DNA of 64,000 nucleotides from Rhypophila decipiens (Eukaryota; Ascomycota; Sordariomycetes; Sordariales; Naviculisporaceae), in assembly GCA_033297075.1 (NCBI GenBank), contig MU858188.1:1-64000 (forward strand), in the 5' to 3' direction. The translations under genes and the position numbers were made by a program. A model generated the notes under the pieces. It was not told the origin of the DNA. It made no database searches and worked only from the letters and a program-made list of their open reading frames with translations. Below, one piece after another: positions 531 to 10,915 of the stretch (its first letter is position 1; the number at the start of each line of letters is the position of its first letter).

Positions 531-2445
531 CTACCCATGCTTTTTCTCTGGTCCGACACCTTGGGTTGTAATATTAAGGAAAGGCACGAGTAGTAAACTA
601 ATAAGGCTTACCGCTGTAGCAAACCAGAAGAGCGCAGCATAGGGCTCGAATGGGTCGTGCACATAGTATCCAGCGGTCGCTGGGTGCTCTGAAACGCTCG
701 CAAAGATGGCCGCGCATATGCCCAAGCCAATAACGGTGCTCAGCTTGATGGCTGTCTGGAAGATGGAGCTGGCAACGGACTGCTGCGACTTGGGAAGAGA
801 TGATACAACATACATCTTGCAGAACGACGACAGCTCGTCAGAGATAGGATCAGAGTATGGTGAAGAAAGGGGCTGGCCGCTCACATTGACAACATTGAAC
901 TCGAAGTCGGTCCCGAAAACCACTATGATGAAAGCCGGGAAGGTGAATGCCCAGTAAGAGGCGCCCGAACGCTGAACTGCGGCCAAAAGAAAGGCAATGG
1001 TGAAGCCAGCGGCGCCGATGCCCATTAATAGCTTGTTGGAAACCTTGTGCAGCAGCTTTCCAGCAAGTATCTAGAGGCGGGAATTATGCCGTTATTATGA
1101 TAGGTTCTGATCAGCCTCAATGTCAGGAGAGCCGCTTGACATACATTGACTACTACTCCTGCTACCGCTGAAGGTAGCAGACAGACTGCTGTTATCAAGG
1201 CAGAGTAACCAAACAGGTCTTGAAGGTACAATGCACTGAAAAAGAACAGGGCCGGAAATGATACGAAACCGAGTAGTAGAATGCCTATCAACTGGAACAG
1301 TACATATGTGAGCAGATTCATTCACGGTTTTGGCGAGAAATACTTTGGTAAACATACCAAGCTGAATTCGCGATCAAGCCAAACCTTCATTGGCATCAAC
1401 GGATACTGGAAGCGCGTCTCCCACCAAACAAAGGTAGCGATCATAAGCGGCCCCGTTACGAGGAAGGCGATGATATATGGCGTCTTCCAGCCTTCTGGTG
1501 CGTCGGGCCCGATGCTGAATTGGGGCTTGTGGTCAGCACAGAATCTCGGTGTCTCTCTCTTTCTCTTACCTGATGCCGGCCGTAAACATGCCGATGCCAC
1601 CAACGGTCAAGAGGACACCCATATAGTCGAATTGCTTCAGTGACGTCTTGTTAAGGGGAAGCTTTTCGCTGTCGTCGTTGGGGACGACGAAACAGGCAAT
1701 GAGGGCGACGACAAGGTAGATGATGGCCAGGAGCCAGAACGAGGCCGACCAACTGAAGAGGTGGGTGGCGATGCCAGAGAAGACGGCGCTAAAGGCGAAG
1801 CCGAGATGGTTTCCTGAGCTGAAGCAGGCAAACGCGTAGTTCTTCCGCTTTGAGGGCCGGTCGTAGATGGAACCCAAGATGCCTTGAGCCGAAGGGATGA
1901 TCGATGCCGACGTCAGACCCATGACGCCATTGAGGGCATTGATGGTGATGGCGTCGCGCGCGAAGCCCGTGGCGAGCGCAAAGACGGAAAACACAAAGAG
2001 ACTGCCGAGCATTATACTCCGGCGACCAAACATGTCTGCGACTTTGCCGAAGAACAACAAGAAGGAGCCTGATGTCAATCTAATAATTGCATGTCAGAAT
2101 CTCTCACTCCTTCTCAAGTCGGGTTACTCACGAAGAAGAGGCTATTACCCATGTTAGCTGGGCAGTGGTCATGTTGAGTTCGCTCTTCATGGCAGGCGAT
2201 ATGATGAGAATGCTTCCCTGCAGAAAGCTTGGCAGGGCAATGCTCATTGTCGCTGTCAATACAAAAAGGATTTCATGAGCTAGTGAACGAAAGGCTGCTG
2301 GCCGAGCATTGGGGTCCGAGGCGGCGAATTCAGTCGCTGGTAAGTGGTCCATTGTCTCCCGTTGGACAGGTTGGTCGGATGGCGCCGTTCTCTCTGACGA
2401 GGCCGTAAGTGCCATCACCTCGACCGGTTGGGTCGGATTATCCAT
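531..2445 (-). CDS. MFS exporter, DHA2 (14-TM drug:H+ antiporter) type
   Basis: Predicted 555-residue multidrug-type efflux permease of the plasma membrane. Five exons join in frame: 2445-2132, 2079-1570, 1514-1358, 1291-1145 and 1070-531. All have GT..AG borders and introns of 43-74 nt. The N-terminal ~55 residues are hydrophilic. Then come repeated hydrophobic helices, and a motif-A-like loop (GKVADMFGRR) between helices 2 and 3 that is diagnostic of MFS proton antiporters. The length and about 14 helices fit the DHA2 family, as do the antiporter-like loops. It is the first gene of the accessory region and lies near the aminotransferase and methyltransferase, so export of a cluster product is a reasonable inference. 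Substrate unknown. A duplicated CCAAT-bearing module lies just upstream. Confidence 0.85.
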
Positions 2446-2702: not shown

Positions 2703-3572
2703 GGTGTGTGGGGCTCTTGCGACAGCTCCTAGTTCTAAGAACCAACGGAGATACAGCACGACCCCAAACCGAGCAACCTCCTTATACAGCAGTTACACCA
2801 AGTACAGCAACCTGAATCGCCAGATTGTATTTGGGATTACAGTGGTAACACAAAAGCACCTTCCTCAGTCGTAGCAACCGGGGAGGGTTGTCCGGATTCC
2901 GATTCGTTGCTCCGTCCGGGGATTCCCTGATAAATGCAGAAGTCCGAGCTATAGCGGTGTAGTAAAAATATGAGATGTCAGCTTATGGTCTGATTTCGGG
3001 GTGCTTTGCCCTTGGCAGACTGACCGGATGTGCCGGGTATCCCAAAGTCGAATCCGTCGACCACTCGGGGTGGGCCGCAGAGGGGGGACTTTTGCTATCC
3101 TGTTTCCAACGTTAGAGACAAACTTCAGATATCATCGTCAAAGCCTCCGAAAATGCGGCGTCTCGTAATGCTCTGTTAATTCTGTTAGGTGTGATGCACC
3201 ATAGATCGGGACATGCTACTAATACGGCGATATTTTTCATTAACTGCGGCGTGGCCTAATCAATAGTAAACCGTTGAGCATGATGCAAGGCTCATCTTGG
3301 CGAGCAAGCAGTCAGCAAATACTTGAAACTATAGGTAATTCATTTCAACCTAGTAGTTACAACACACAGCAGCTACCCGAGAGTGTTGCCGGGGGTTAAG
3401 TATCATATATATGTACGTCATAGGGTTGCATACCTTATGCAACAGGGCTAAGTGCAATACACATTCCATATACCTCTTCGGACTCTTATGCAAGAGACTA
3501 CGGCAAGACTCATTGTGGCGTGAAAGCAGTCAGCACCTTTTTGAAACTACACGTACCGCCTTCTCTGACCTG

Positions 3573-3763
3573 ATACGATTGTATGATCCGTGCACGCCAA
3601 GTACTGTTGCTAAGGTGGGCTCAGCTTATATACAGACGCACTAACAGTAGCAACCTGATGATCACTGGACCTTTTTTGCTCTATCGATAAGACGAATCCT
3701 GTTAGTATAGACGTACTAAAACTATGGTCCCCTTAACATCGTGCACGGATCATACAATCGTAT
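3573..3763. repeat. Perfect 24-bp inverted repeat, 143-bp spacer
   Basis: Arm 1 (3573-3596) is the exact reverse complement of arm 2 (3740-3763). Each arm is built around ATCCGTGCAC and TACAATCGTAT blocks. No open frame lies between them. This could be a short MITE relic or a strong cruciform/hairpin in the region downstream of the aminotransferase. Confidence 0.6.
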
Positions 3764-3862
3764 TCAATAAGAGAAACCCGGTAATTCAATCTAATAACCA
3801 TGATCCCTTGCTTGGTTCACCCAATACCCGCCATTATTTCCGCCTTCCTCACGGTCCGCTGA

Positions 3863-5120
3863 TCATCGTTTGAAGGTGACGTGGGCATCTTCTGCCAGCA
3901 CTTCACAACGCCACCCAAACTTGTCCTCAAGTTTTCCAACCTGGACACCCCCTAGCTGTGCAACCAGCTGCCGGTAGAGTGGTCCGCCATGCACTTGCTC
4001 ATCCTGTATGTATTGGATGGTCTCGGACCCATCAGAGCCAACGTGCAGACGCCCAGTCGTATCGTCATTGGGCGTCTTCGAAGTCAGCAAGGAACTAACC
4101 CGTCGCGTTATTGATCTGACGGGCACCAAGCCGGTGCCAGTGCCCGCACTCATCACCTCGTCGAAGTAAGGAAGCTCCTCATAGCAGACGCGCCGCTTCT
4201 CCACAACCCAACCCAATGCTCTCGCGATCTGCTGGACGCTGTCACTTGTGAGACTTGGCAGGACCGTGGGCGAGTCGGGCACCACGAGCGTGATGTCGCT
4301 GTCAGCAGATGTCCCGGTCTTCCTCACCGCAAGAAACCCGCTCGCGCTGAATTCCTCGATCTCCTCGCGATTCACACAATCCAGATGCAGGGTGAGATCG
4401 AAGCCGGCCGTCTTTGCCTGCATTATCCAGGGAATGGACCCGGCGTAATTGCCCCCGGTTTTGGCGTGGCCGGTGCCGCGGGGTGCTGCTCGGTCAAAGT
4501 CGTCCAGGATCAGTGCCTTGACCGGCGGCATTCCGTCTAGAGCCCCGAAAGGTAGCGGCGCCACGTAGATGCAGAATATCCACCCATGGGTTAGATGCGG
4601 CACGAGGGAGGGTCCCGATGCGAACAAGAGCGGCCGGAGGTACATGCCCCAGCCCGTCTTGTGGGGTGGCACAAAACAGGCGTTGAGGGCCACGGCGGCG
4701 CGGCACGCCTGCTGGAACATGTCGGCCGGGATCGGTGGCATGTCGACCACTTCTGCAGAGTGACGGAACCTTTTTCCGTGGCAATCAGGTCGAAATAGCG
4801 CTATGCTGTCACTACCAGCATCTCCCGGCGGCATCCGAAACGCTTTGAGGCCTTCGAATATTTGCTGGCCATAGTTTAGAGCCGATGCCAGGCCATGGAC
4901 ACTCAGAAGTGGGTTAGAAACAAATGTAAGCGGTGTCCAGCCGCCTGTTGCCTCATCGTAGCGGGATTCAATGTGCCCGTTCGCTATGTGGAACATGGAC
5001 GTCAGTCATCCTCACTGATCTAATGATCGGCCCGGCACTTCACATACCTTGGTCAAACTTGAGTGTTTTTCCACTCGACCAATCAAGCTTGCTGGTCGGT
5101 GGGGGCGGAAAGGTCGACAT
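3863..5120 (-). CDS. Branched-chain-type amino acid aminotransferase (PLP fold IV)
   Basis: Predicted to move an amino group between glutamate and a branched, aromatic or unusual alpha-keto acid. Two exons: 5120-5048 encodes the short start beginning MSTFPPPPTSKLDW, and 4983-3863 encodes the rest. They are separated by a 64-nt GT..AG intron with a CTGAC branch point. The product is 397 residues. Seen: NYGQQIFEGLKAF near the N-terminus, the PLP lysine in GHAKTGGNYAGS (about K199), and the phosphate/carboxylate loop SAGTGTGLVPV. The N-terminus and overall organisation resemble the BCAT paralogues found in fungal secondary-metabolite clusters rather than the mitochondrial or cytosolic housekeeping enzyme. 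It is transcribed divergently from the methyltransferase across about 930 bp, which suggests co-regulation and a shared pathway. Confidence 0.9.
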
Positions 5121-6046
5121 GTTTGTTAGACCTTTGCTCGTGTAGTCTATCAGTTCGCTGTCCATGTATTCGTCTTGGTGTGCTGTGAAAGGCCCGGGGT
5201 CTTTATGCAGAATCTTCGGTGACTGCTCGCCTGTTCAACAAGTTCCCTGCATGGGCCAACCATTCTGTCTTCTCTGACTATGCCTGCAAGCTGGAGGCGG
5301 TATAAGTGCGAGATTGAAAAACTGAGTGCAAAGTCGATGACCGGTGAGAGGCTGTGAGCGCGAGGTTGATGATCGGCGGGTGAAGGTAGCACTGAAGACC
5401 TCCATCACCAATAGCTGCCCACTTCATCGCCTTTGGCTCCGCTTCGGCATACCTTCCTTCCATGCTGAGTATGTCACCTCGACTACGCCCCGAGGGTGGT
5501 ACGATGCGTCCATACATGTTGGGGCCGTCACATCTTGACCACCTGTGTGCTAATATAAGCGACTTCTTTGGAGATTTGAGTGTTTGATTACGTCCTTGAA
5601 GTCTTGAGAGTGGCGAGAACCGTCAAAGGAATGAGCGACAAGCCCTTGACATGGTGATCGGGTGCGAAAGAATCAAGTCGCTGGCTCGGATCAATGATCC
5701 TGCAGCCGGTTCAGGGGTCTGGGGTCTGGGGCGCTTCGTGGTCGGAGCAAGAAGAGCCAAGCATGCCCTGAGGTGCCCTACTTTGAAAGGGCTGACAGCT
5801 TGTCGCAGAGCCTATTATAGGTTCGCTCGTGTAAGACAAGGTGAATAGGGAGTGACAAAAGGCCAAAGGAGACGGAGCCGGGCGAGCGGCCACAACAAGG
5901 CATATGACCAGGTGGTTAGAGTGGCCCGGTTTGCCCACTTATTTACTACGAAACATATAAACTCCAGGATACACACTTGGTGATTTCCCTCCTGCCTTAG
6001 CCAACAGCACCTCAAGCAGCATTCACATTGTGTACAAGTCACAAAC
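5121..6046. promoter_or_regulatory. Bidirectional promoter region of aminotransferase and methyltransferase
   Basis: A 926-bp divergent intergenic region with no convincing gene. A TATA box (TATAAA, 5956-5961) sits about 90 bp upstream of the methyltransferase start codon at 6047. A CATAAAG on the minus strand near 5200 could serve the aminotransferase. Shared control of the two genes is inferred from the layout. Confidence 0.5.
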
Positions 6047-7152
6047 ATGGGTTCCCAGTTTACAGACTCCAAGCATGCCGTGGCACATATTTTCAACTCG
6101 GTAAGTTGCCCCCCCTCGTACCTCTGGCAGCAATATATTGACCTATGCACAAGGCCATCGCAGCACCTGCCATTGCAGCAGCATGGGAAATTGGATTCCT
6201 CGATGAACTGCTGAAACAGCAGGAAGTCAGCATCACCGACTATGCGGAGCAACATGATCTGGACCTTGCGTCTCTCAAGGGCCTGGCGTCGGCTCTGGCA
6301 ACTGTGCATATAGTCAAGCGAGACGCCAACACCGTCACTGCTGGGACTCACTTGCACGAGGCTTATCGAAACAAATCACTGTTTCACTGGCTCACTCTCG
6401 GGTCGGGGACGCTCTTCGCCCGCATGCAGCACGTCCTGCGGAATGAGAACCGGACTGGGTCCTTCTACAGCCGCGACTCTGCTGCCATCGCCTATGCCTG
6501 CCGCGAGGCCAACGCCGAGTTTTTCGACCCCATGTTCTGGAAGGCCATGGGGGAGATCGACTACCAAGTTCACTCGGTTGTCGATCTTGGGTGCGGGAGC
6601 GGCGAGAAGCTCATGCAGATTCTTGAACGCTATCCCGGCACCAAAGCCATCGGCATCGATATCGCCCAACCTGCAGTCGAGTTCGCTACTGCCGAGTCGG
6701 TGAGGCGTGGCCTCAGTGACAGGCTGACCTTTACGCAAGGCGACGCCTGCGCCCTCGAGTATCGGGACGAGTTCAGCGAGGTTGACCTCCTGACGTCGTT
6801 TCTGATGGGGCACGACTTTTGGCCTCGGGAGGACTGTGTTGGGTCACTGAAGAGTCTGCGCGCTGCCTTCCCCAACGTCCGCCGCTTTTTGCTCTGTGAC
6901 ACTGCCAGGGTTCTTCTCGACAGCCCGGACAAGGGCGATACTTCCCGTAGCAGATACGCTGTCACTGAGGATGACGTTCCCCTTTTCACCTTGGGGTTTG
7001 AGTTCGGTCATGCTTTGATGGACACATTTATTCCCACCATCGAAGACTGGGAGGGCGTCTTGGAGGAAGGCGGATGGCGTTGCAAAAAGAGCTACACTTT
7101 CCCGCCGTCCCTTTCTTTTTGCATGGATCTCGAGCCGATCAATCAAGACTAG
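6047..7152 (+). CDS. SAM-dependent C-methyltransferase, MppJ-like (alpha-keto acid beta-carbon methylation)
   Basis: Predicted 350-residue class I SAM methyltransferase. Exon 1 is 6047-6100 (MGSQFTDSKHAVAHIFNS); a 53-nt intron follows, then exon 2 6154-7152. The ATG at 6145 lies inside the intron and is not the start. Seen: an N-terminal helical/winged region (residues 1-150), SAM motif I VVDLGCGSGE (about 160-169), the acidic strand end GIDIAQ (about 195-200) and GDACALE (about 224-230). C-terminal GHDFWPRE (H238) and FEFGH (H304) follow. From memory, the stretches around NENRTG, YACRE, FPNVRRFLL and TLGFEFGH closely resemble bacterial MppJ, a non-haem-iron enzyme that methylates phenylpyruvate before transamination, and the two histidines match its iron ligands. 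Divergent from the aminotransferase, which would be the next step. Other possibility: an O-methyltransferase of the same fold. Confidence 0.8.
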
Positions 7153-7994: not shown

Positions 7995-8438
7995 ATGGCA
8001 CAACCTCCGCTCAAGTCCAAAGACTACCCTTCACTGGTCGACCAGTTCCCAGAGAACGTGCCAGTAACAGTCGTGCACATGATCCGCTTCAAAGCAACGG
8101 CCGTCTATCCGCCGTCCTCGCCGTTCGTTTCCCTCGAGCCCATCTCAGGACGTGATGCCTTCTTTCAGCGTTATATCCCCGCCGGCGAGGCCGCTGCGAA
8201 AAAGGTCGGCATAAAGCCCGCCGAGCCGCGTTTCTTCTCCACCACGGTCACCAACCTCCTCCCGCACAATGATATCGCATGGGACCTCGTGGCCGCAAGA
8301 CAGTACGCAAGTTTTGCGGACTACGCCAGATACCAATTCAGCAACGAGTACACTAGCGAGGCAGTACCGCATAGAGAAGCGGCCTTGGAGGAATGGTCAC
8401 TGGTTGCTTGTGTTGAGGAAGAGTATAAGAAAGCCTAG
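7995..8438 (+). CDS. DUF1330-like dimeric alpha/beta-barrel small protein
   Basis: Intron-less 147-residue protein. It begins after a Pro/Lys-rich dozen residues with VTVVHMIRFKA (a strand typical of DUF1330/ABM-like ferredoxin-fold proteins). It continues with SGRDAFFQRYI, a central variable segment, and ends with the second strand-helix unit DLVAARQYASFADYARYQFS, then HREAALEEWSLVAC. This order (NLL/MIRF strand, SGR-x-A helix, 'pasted-in' SFADY helix, HR-x-AL) is the family signature. Such proteins are small dimers, some acting as cyclases, isomerases or oxygenases in secondary metabolism; the activity here is unknown. It sits in line after the methyltransferase and converges on the hydrolase 97 bp downstream. 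Confidence 0.65.
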   Translation: MAQPPLKSKDYPSLVDQFPENVPVTVVHMIRFKATAVYPPSSPFVSLEPISGRDAFFQRYIPAGEAAAKKVGIKPAEPRFFSTTVTNLLPHNDIAWDLVAARQYASFADYARYQFSNEYTSEAVPHREAALEEWSLVACVEEEYKKA

Positions 8439-8534: not shown

Positions 8535-9602
8535 CTAAAACCTCCACCTCTTACCCAAAAACCTATTCAGTCCATGCCTCTCCAAGAACTTATCCAATAG
8601 CTTGGCGACCTTGGCATTATCCATGTCTGCAAAGGGGATATGTGTGCTTCCTTTCAGCCCAGCATCGTCCCCTAGCATCAGCACCTGGGCATTCCCACCG
8701 TATTGATTGATAAGGGCAGCGCATAAACGGGACTGTTGAACATATGTGTCTGTAGGATCCCGGTGGTCGCCCCAAACGAACTGAATAGCAGCAAGCTTAG
8801 CCAGCTTCTTGAATTCCTCGACGGGTACGACAATGGGGCCAAAACCACCACGGGCGTCCTGAGTAATGTTAAGACCGGACGGAAAGACGTAGCCGATACT
8901 CTCGTAGGTCACGATTCCCTTGATATTGGTGGTGTTGCTCCGGATCGCGGTCAGCTGGGCACGCAGTCCTCCAGCCGAGTTGGTAAGATAGACAATGCTC
9001 TTGCCAACTTTGCCCGAGTCAGCGGCCACGGCGGCGGCATGGGCATGTAGGAGGACGTTCTCGTAGTTGTCGAACTCGTCGTAGCGGGCGCTGGTGGCTT
9101 GCTGCCAGGCACCGGGGTCGTTCGTGGGGAACTGGACGTCTGGCCACCAGTTCATAAATGAAGGGCCAAAGTTCCAGGCGACGAAATTGCCCTGATCTCG
9201 GTATTGCGGGATGTAGGTGGTCGGACGACAGCCCCAGTTGGCGCGGCCGACACGGGGTCCATCCCAGAGGAACACGGGATAACCACGACGCAAAAACATG
9301 TCCTTGTATCCTTGGCCACCATCCCAACGGTTCTGCCATACCTGCGTACTGGAGCTGTGCCACATGACGAGGCTGGTCTGGCGCGGTTCCCAAGGGAGGA
9401 AGTACTCCATGTAACCGTGGTCACAGGATAGAGTTTGGTTGGTATTGTTGGGGTTGGTGATGATGGTGCCTCCTATTTGAAAACCACCAGACCTGTCAAG
9501 CATGATGGGTTTGTCCCAGTCTCGGTGAGATGACGAGAGACTTTCAGCATTGACGCCATGTGGCAGCGATAGCAATGGCACTAGCAAGAGTGTAGTAGCC
9601 AT
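8535..9602 (-). CDS. Secreted alpha/beta hydrolase
   Basis: Single-exon protein of 355 residues if translation starts at 9602. That start gives a clean signal peptide (MATTLLLVPLLSLPHGVNA, cleavage after A19). An in-frame ATG at 9674 would add 24 residues and bury the signal, so I prefer the internal one. Seen: the HSSS turn after strand 3, DMFLRRGYPVFLWDGPRVGR (cap entry, typical of a large bacterial-like hydrolase family), the nucleophile elbow YLTNSAGG, and a C-terminal STHIPF with the likely catalytic histidine. The elbow is N-S-A-G-G rather than the common G-x-S-x-G. Several N-glycosylation sites fit secretion. Substrate unknown; it may be an esterase or lactonase. It converges on the DUF1330-like gene. 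Confidence 0.75.
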   Translation of the reverse strand: MATTLLLVPLLSLPHGVNAESLSSSHRDWDKPIMLDRSGGFQIGGTIITNPNNTNQTLSCDHGYMEYFLPWEPRQTSLVMWHSSSTQVWQNRWDGGQGYKDMFLRRGYPVFLWDGPRVGRANWGCRPTTYIPQYRDQGNFVAWNFGPSFMNWWPDVQFPTNDPGAWQQATSARYDEFDNYENVLLHAHAAAVAADSGKVGKSIVYLTNSAGGLRAQLTAIRSNTTNIKGIVTYESIGYVFPSGLNITQDARGGFGPIVVPVEEFKKLAKLAAIQFVWGDHRDPTDTYVQQSRLCAALINQYGGNAQVLMLGDDAGLKGSTHIPFADMDNAKVAKLLDKFLERHGLNRFLGKRWRF

Positions 9603-10915
9603 TTGAATTGCCGTCTGGCGTACTGACACCAGAGAGGCGCCATCACGAGAGCGTTGATATCCGTCCTGAAGCATAGTGACCTTGTCCGTGATTGGGCACT
9701 TGATTACAAGACCAGCCCAGGATATGACGATGTCGAATGATGTGCCTCAGGACCAAAAATGGTGGTTTCTAGGGCTTTGTGAAGGAGGAGTCGCGGGGTC
9801 AGTGGATAATCTCAAGTGCTGTTCGGGGTCTGTGTTCTCTTACTTATAACCCAAGCCGTCCATGACCCGAGGCGGGAAGAGCAAGAGCGGCCTGGGGAGA
9901 TAGAGACGACCATCGAGGGGGGAAAAGATCGTCGAATAACATGCCGTGATTTTGGCTTGGCTGATCTGCAAGGAAATGTAGGCAAGCCTCCCGGGAAGCA
10001 TCATCGCTGCTGGATAATAAATCCAGTTCGTGAATTCCCATTTGGGTCGTTTGTGTGTGAGCTGCACGGTTCTTGATAGTCATCGTCTTCCCCCAGCATC
10101 CATATTATCCCCGTACCGCAATGGGAGATTCATATATGGGAATGCGGGGAGTAGGGTTAGTATAAGTATGGACGGTGCTGACAGCCAAACTGCCGGCTTG
10201 GCCCTGACGGAATTATTCGTCCCTCATCTGTACCAGCCGGCTGGATTGAACCAGACACTCACATCTCCGATTCCCGTGACCGAATATCTGCTCAACCACT
10301 GGTCGTCCGGGCAGGATAGTTCAACACTATGGATAATTTCTCGGTGTACAGAAACCATGCTCGCCAAGCTCCATGAAAAAAAAAGGTCCGCGAGTTAACA
10401 CTACTAAAGACCTACTAAGTGTTGCCCGTGCTTCTAGCCCCCCAGCAACACCTCGCTGGATGTCATGACCACTTTCTAATCCATCTGCCATTGACTGCTG
10501 CCGTTCAGCTTGTCGGGAATCCAACATGGACGGCGAGTCCTGGTGTGCCAGATCCCAGCTTGCGTTGTCCGCTAAGAGCCGTGCCCCAAAGCTGGATATA
10601 TCCATTTATGTGATGTGTGCCGTGTCGGTGTTCTTGTCGCTCGCCTTACCTGCAAGCTTCGATGCGGTAAAAAGATCCGTACCCGAGCGTCTTACGAGAA
10701 ATTACCACTCCCAAGAGAATACTGTCGTTCTCCTGGTGGGTTAATACTAAGTTATGAAAATGGTGAAGAGCGACTGTGTTATATAGGCAAATTCTCAACC
10801 GATCCCACCGTGCCTCGAAAATATTACTTCCCGATTCAGAAGGAAAGCCTCCTCGCCAAGCTACCAGACGGTACCAAACTAAACCTCACCATGATCCATC
10901 GAAAGAAAAACCTCG
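9603..10915. other. Intergenic region with possible small or decayed coding remnants
   Basis: About 1.3 kb between the hydrolase start and the stop of the JEN-like transporter. A plus-strand frame from an ATG at 10168 to 10398 reads plausibly for about 50 residues (GLALTELFVPHLYQPAGLNQ ...) but then runs into an A-tract and stops. A second frame at about 10740-10930 also looks faintly protein-like. I recognise neither and cannot join them convincingly. They could be a decayed gene. Confidence 0.3.

Follow-up and report, generated by a model that had tools for sequence, protein, structure and literature searches.

Gene content and layout of the locus

The window is the whole stretch of DNA analysed here, covering bases 1 to 64,000 of contig C144 (101,327 bp) in the Rhypophila decipiens assembly (45.7 Mb, 408 contigs). 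Close to its beginning lie three genes, a transporter and an aminotransferase on the minus strand followed by a methyltransferase on the plus strand (Table 1). The spliced methyltransferase is a single open protein of 350 residues. For the aminotransferase, the best gene model encodes 412 residues, or 397 if the inner ATG at 5120 is used, and many homologues among the matches listed cover 95–96% of the 412-residue query. An earlier note on this DNA had placed that gene at 3863–4996, which is the large open reading frame only; the gene itself is real and consists of two exons. The start codons of the two divergent genes are 881 bp apart. The exporter suggested in the same note is also a real gene, matched end to end by the R. 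decipiens protein P0241, and 98% identical to a protein of that species; it encodes an MFS transporter (PF07690, 79 bits on 1566–2078) and has five introns, of which the final two are placed only approximately. The contig starts 530 bp beyond the end of this gene.

Table 1. Features of the three-gene locus, with positions counted from the first base of the window
Feature	Position	Strand	Remark
MFS transporter, 'aminotriazole resistance' type by database names	531..2445	-	covers P0241 over its full length
BCAT-type class IV aminotransferase, exon 2	3863..4983	-	PLP lysine K214
BCAT-type class IV aminotransferase, exon 1	5048..5165	-	start at 5165 or 5120
Divergent intergenic (putative promoter) region, aminotransferase/methyltransferase	5166..6046	.	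from gene models
MppJ-like C-methyltransferase, exon 1	6047..6100	+	open reading through 53-nt GT-AG intron to exon 2
MppJ-like C-methyltransferase, exon 2	6154..7152	+	holds His238 and His304

In the gap between the transporter and the aminotransferase, the segment 3285–3775 contains a diverged 53-nt direct repeat (3285–3337 and 3503–3555, 79%) and an inverted repeat with 36-nt arms (3561–3596 and 3740–3775, 86%), perhaps the relic of a small mobile element. Beside the trio are two further open reading frames (7995–8438 and 8535–9674), which gave zero Pfam matches up to an E value of 5.

The methyltransferase is related to MppJ

Compared with solved structures, the methyltransferase matches MppJ, the phenylpyruvate C-methyltransferase of the mannopeptimycin pathway of Streptomyces hygroscopicus, with an E value of 9.8e-109, the next other structure reaching 9.6e-8; at the level of sequence the match is far beyond chance. 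The predicted fold is also closest to MppJ, with 50% identity over 305 aligned model residues (4m6x_A), and the six short blocks that the earlier note had named as shared with MppJ are all present and identical in it. The proposed kinship is further borne out by the iron-site positions, since His238 and His304 correspond to MppJ His243 and His295, which we take to be the iron ligands. Among the best 120 of 485 matches, histidine is found at the His243 position in all 120 and at the His295 position in 119. MppJ binds iron (PMC10784701). Three other MppJ positions, Asp244, Arg127 and Trp99, are kept as Asp239, Arg125 and Trp97, respectively. The window gene differs from MppJ in being fungal and containing an intron. 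Its own locus is the sole match of the query in the genome, and the protein of Rhypophila sp. PSN 637 is 93% identical to it, among the matches listed.

The protein also passes the cut-off of PF00891, the Pfam O-methyltransferase family (30.3 bits versus 22.3), a point against the assignment to MppJ-like enzymes. The O-methyltransferase reading was nevertheless rejected because the MppJ match is strong and both iron-site positions are kept. A 2-ketoarginine methyltransferase (TIGR04543) was likewise discarded, the score being 71.3 bits against a curated cut-off of 425.

The aminotransferase partner

The neighbouring gene matches PF01063 with 81.9 bits (cut-off 28.5; E 8.2e-23). Residues K214, Y219, R156 and E250, presumably catalytic or PLP-site residues, are identical in all of the best 120 of 4238 matches. 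With this family match and these residues kept, the protein is assigned to the class IV enzymes of the fungal BCAT type, as had been proposed. The scores for the branched-chain amino-acid transaminase equivalogs TIGR01123 (205 bits versus a curated cut-off of 250) and NF009897 (236.8 versus 307) refer to the 377-residue exon 2 reading frame. The genome contains five class IV loci, that of the window included, the nearest paralogue being located on contig C44 with 54% identity over the main exon.

Residue 82, which we assume to line the pocket, is Phe in the window. Among the matches listed, it is Tyr in 90 of the 119 aminotransferases with a letter there; the 10 lettered sequences linked on one contig to a methyltransferase all have Phe or Leu. 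It is a possible specificity position and is treated as a lead only, because kinship confounds the count.

Conservation of the pair and of the transporter in other fungi

The best 120 of 485 methyltransferase matches were compared with the best 120 of 4238 aminotransferase matches, two genes being assigned to the same contig when contig size and organism or source were equal. At least 11 of these 120 methyltransferases have a listed aminotransferase on the same contig, and six of the 11 are tight pairs, recognised by locus tags that are consecutive or nearly so, or by a contig no longer than about 25 kb. They are found in Monosporascus sp. MG133 (consecutive tags 002371/002370), Cosmosporella VM-42 (consecutive tags 114220/114230), Fusarium NRRL 66182 (tags 3271/3269), Rhypophila sp. 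PSN 637 (25-kb contig) and two metagenome contigs of 7.6 and 4.6 kb. The other five lie on contigs of 0.29 to 5.1 Mb, where adjacency is not implied; the same caution applies to the contigs of 0.29–5.3 Mb from jgi294490, Cadophora, Apodospora, Lindgomyces, Exserohilum, Rhexocercosporidium and Podospora didyma. The pair is thus kept together in fungal genomes other than the one studied. The transporter belongs to the unit as well, because all three genes are present in Monosporascus sp. MG133, on consecutive locus tags (transporter 002369), and on the single 25-kb contig of Rhypophila sp. PSN 637. It is also linked in Lindgomyces (same 2.4-Mb contig) and, with the methyltransferase, in Apodospora (same 2.0-Mb contig).

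In an aminotransferase tree built from 52 of the 120 listed matches, the branching near the window resembles that of the methyltransferase tree: Rhypophila is nearest, followed by Paramyrothecium and then by Monosporascus with jgi7559. The Paramyrothecium branch comes from two species, P. foliicola for the methyltransferase and P. roridum for the aminotransferase. Against this, the methyltransferase-linked aminotransferases as a group do not form one clade (seven label changes). Apodospora and P. foliicola have methyltransferases close to that of the window, but their listed aminotransferases (P0155 and P0138) sit on different contigs and branch elsewhere in the aminotransferase tree; the two genes of Stylonectria are also on different contigs, among the matches listed.

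A lone MppJ-like gene that happens to lie beside a diverged housekeeping-type BCAT would agree with the 109 of the best 120 methyltransferase matches that share no contig with a listed aminotransferase. We consider such incidental linkage very improbable, given the consecutive tags in Monosporascus and Cosmosporella, the pairs on contigs of 4.6, 7.6 and 25 kb, the likeness of the two trees near the window, and the presence of four other class IV loci in the genome, the nearest of which is 54% identical over its main exon.

Aminotransferase and transporter genes also share a contig (pairs P0127/P0251, P0146/P0250 and P0135/P0252) in Tolypocladium paradoxum, Diplogelasinospora grovesii and Podospora didyma, three fungi with no methyltransferase among the best 120 of 485 matches; these two genes may therefore serve other amino acids.

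Origin of the methyltransferase

The search of GTDB genomes yielded 73 relatives, all of them recorded as actinobacterial. A tree of 110 rows was built from the window protein, MppJ, 71 of these bacterial loci (the remaining two, being partial, were dropped) and 37 of the 120 listed matches, one of which is from Saccharothrix; all rows are MppJ-like, with no O-methyltransferases, and three metagenome rows were counted as fungal. The fungal rows form one set together with Kibdelosporangium and Saccharothrix (support 100/100), a set whose sister is the MppJ group (88/95), with actinobacterial rows around them. Taken by themselves, the fungi require two label changes and are a single group in 4% of the bootstrap trees. 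The topology fits capture of the gene from an actinobacterium, possibly in more than one transfer or with a return to Kibdelosporangium and Saccharothrix. The two bacterial members of the fungal set, L009 (Kibdelosporangium aridum) and P0036 (Saccharothrix sp. AJ9571), could be near the donor or represent such a return. A transfer of an MppJ-like gene into Pyrenophora tritici-repentis was already reported in 2013 (PMC3612039, in the part of the text available); among the matches listed here, the spread of these genes in fungi is wider.

A class IV aminotransferase was found within the fetched flank (up to 8 kb) of 5 of the 73 actinobacterial loci (L069, L072, L073, L074 and L076), the search covering class IV enzymes with a profile made from fungal sequences. 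Because all five carry distant methyltransferases (41–43% identity to the query of the GTDB search), a bacterial origin of the whole pair was rejected on this class IV comparison and the fungal pairing looks separate from the actinobacterial one.

Comparison with known systems

The earlier note knew of no such pair in fungi. This view does not stand, because the available text of PMC7399079 (2020) lists one and that of PMC12113358 (2025) shows activity for a fungal enzyme. According to the former, the chaetoglobosin P cluster of Discosia rubi has adjacent g76 (C-methyltransferase) and g77 (BCAT-type aminotransferase) genes, for which beta-methyltryptophan is proposed, and the chaetoglobosin K cluster of Stenocarpella holds counterparts of both. 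The adjacency of the two gene types is shared with the window; the two clusters, as described there, are of the PKS-NRPS type with a twinfilin gene, whereas the contig of the window, which ends 530 bp past the transporter, is without a ketosynthase or condensation match. The D. rubi protein P0062, which we infer to be g76, falls in the same largely fungal set of the methyltransferase tree as the window protein.

In the part of PMC12113358 available, UgsB of the unguisin NRPS cluster was shown by knockout and in vitro assay to give beta-methylphenylpyruvate, and it was inactive in vitro on phenylalanine and on the finished peptide; 15 other genes of the cluster were knocked out, and the products were affected by ugsB alone. 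UgsB and UngE' (Aspergillus candidus and A. campestris) are, like the window protein, fungal MppJ-like enzymes, but that text names no aminotransferase in their NRPS cluster; the likeness is by description, the tree having no row under the name UgsB. MppJ was paired with the promiscuous TyrB in an Escherichia coli reconstruction, while the window has an adjacent class IV partner. The bacterial beta-methyltryptophan systems MarG-MarI and StnR-StnQ1, likened to the window by description only, follow the same logic of a transaminase plus a keto-acid C-methyltransferase, with an extra cupin-fold protein, as presented in the available part of PMC7399079.

Proposed pathway and alternative substrates

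We propose, with a probability of roughly two in three, that the three genes are a compact unit for making and exporting a beta-methylated aromatic amino acid. The methyltransferase would bind SAM, coordinate an iron ion through His238 and His304, chelate an aryl-pyruvate, most likely phenylpyruvate, via its keto acid, and add a methyl group at the beta (benzylic) position. Its divergent BCAT-type neighbour would then aminate the product from a common donor, yielding a beta-methyl amino acid, most likely beta-methylphenylalanine, and the MFS transporter would export this amino acid or something made from it. Gene structure, kinship, kept catalytic residues and conserved neighbourhood were obtained here; the chemistry follows that of MppJ and UgsB, and the order of steps in Rhypophila and the cargo of the transporter are our extrapolation. 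The two-step module with an exporter put forward in the earlier note gains its kinship, its partner and its conserved pairing, while its substrate and product stay predictions; neither of the outcomes that the note had named as counting against it was observed. The in vitro methylation of phenylpyruvate by UgsB argues for the proposed pathway, as do the kept iron-site and substrate-site positions, the kept catalytic residues of the aminotransferase and the linked transporter. The fact that UgsB works without a clustered aminotransferase, at least in the available text of PMC12113358, counts against it.

Indolepyruvate is the main alternative substrate because of the proposal made for chaetoglobosins P and K, and the product would then be beta-methyltryptophan. 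The sole printed fungal pair of this kind that was found is assigned to that amino acid (PMC7399079, in the part available), and P0062 of D. rubi, 58% identical to the window methyltransferase among the matches listed, adjoins the larger set of the window in the tree with weak support (87/43). In addition, the window has Thr309 at a position that is Val in MppJ (Val300), five close bacterial relatives and D. rubi; MppJ and D. rubi, however, are alike at this position. The product assigned to D. rubi is in turn a prediction, and the characterised relatives MppJ, JomM and UgsB have a role, shown or assigned, in the making of beta-methylphenylalanine. On balance, beta-methyltryptophan seems unlikely here.

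Transamination being reversible, the aminotransferase might instead work mainly backwards, supplying the aryl-pyruvate from an amino acid, so that a keto or hydroxy acid with a beta-methyl group would result; pathways of the indolmycin type employ a methylated keto acid. The surroundings of the genes include no recognised reductase, the two adjoining reading frames having no Pfam matches (see above), and we regard this direction as decidedly improbable.

Stand-alone unit or edge of a larger cluster

The preferred pathway could end in a free amino acid or in a building block; only 530 bp of the contig lie beyond the transporter. For the trio to be the edge of a larger cluster, with an NRPS or PKS-NRPS beyond the contig end, is conceivable at somewhat less than even odds. 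The contig start lies close to the transporter, the genome has at least 40 condensation and at least 83 ketosynthase matches, with many NRPS and PKS genes, and MppJ, JomM, UgsB and the chaetoglobosin P and K pairs all feed or adjoin assembly lines. On the other hand, none of the 40 condensation and none of the 83 ketosynthase matches falls on C144. An assembly line split over the contig gap was sought on C137 and C179, which carry an NRPS near one end; the open reading frames of their first 10 kb show no join to the locus, the gap itself lying outside this comparison.

A stand-alone fungal trio of exporter, transaminase and iron-dependent keto-acid C-methyltransferase of actinobacterial origin, secreting a free beta-branched aromatic amino acid as an antimetabolite against competitors, is a tentative and rather doubtful extension of the proposed pathway. 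No stand-alone fungal trio was found in the open-licence literature searched, the nearest cases being those of PMC7399079 and PMC12113358, and the element that looks new is the conserved trio with its transporter, possibly free-standing. Aromatic amino acids with a beta branch contain two stereocentres and are difficult to prepare; a trio that is truly self-contained in a eukaryote would be a handy source of enzymes and would point to fungi that probably produce metabolites not yet reported. The wide occurrence of MppJ-like genes in Pezizomycotina, together with the similar branching of the two trees around the window, makes the dating of the bacterial gene capture and of the pairing testable.

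Contig C137 itself contains a 1478-residue NRPS frame (L082, 4009–8445) that includes adenylation and carrier domains as well as condensation-domain matches, situated about 4 kb from one end of the contig.
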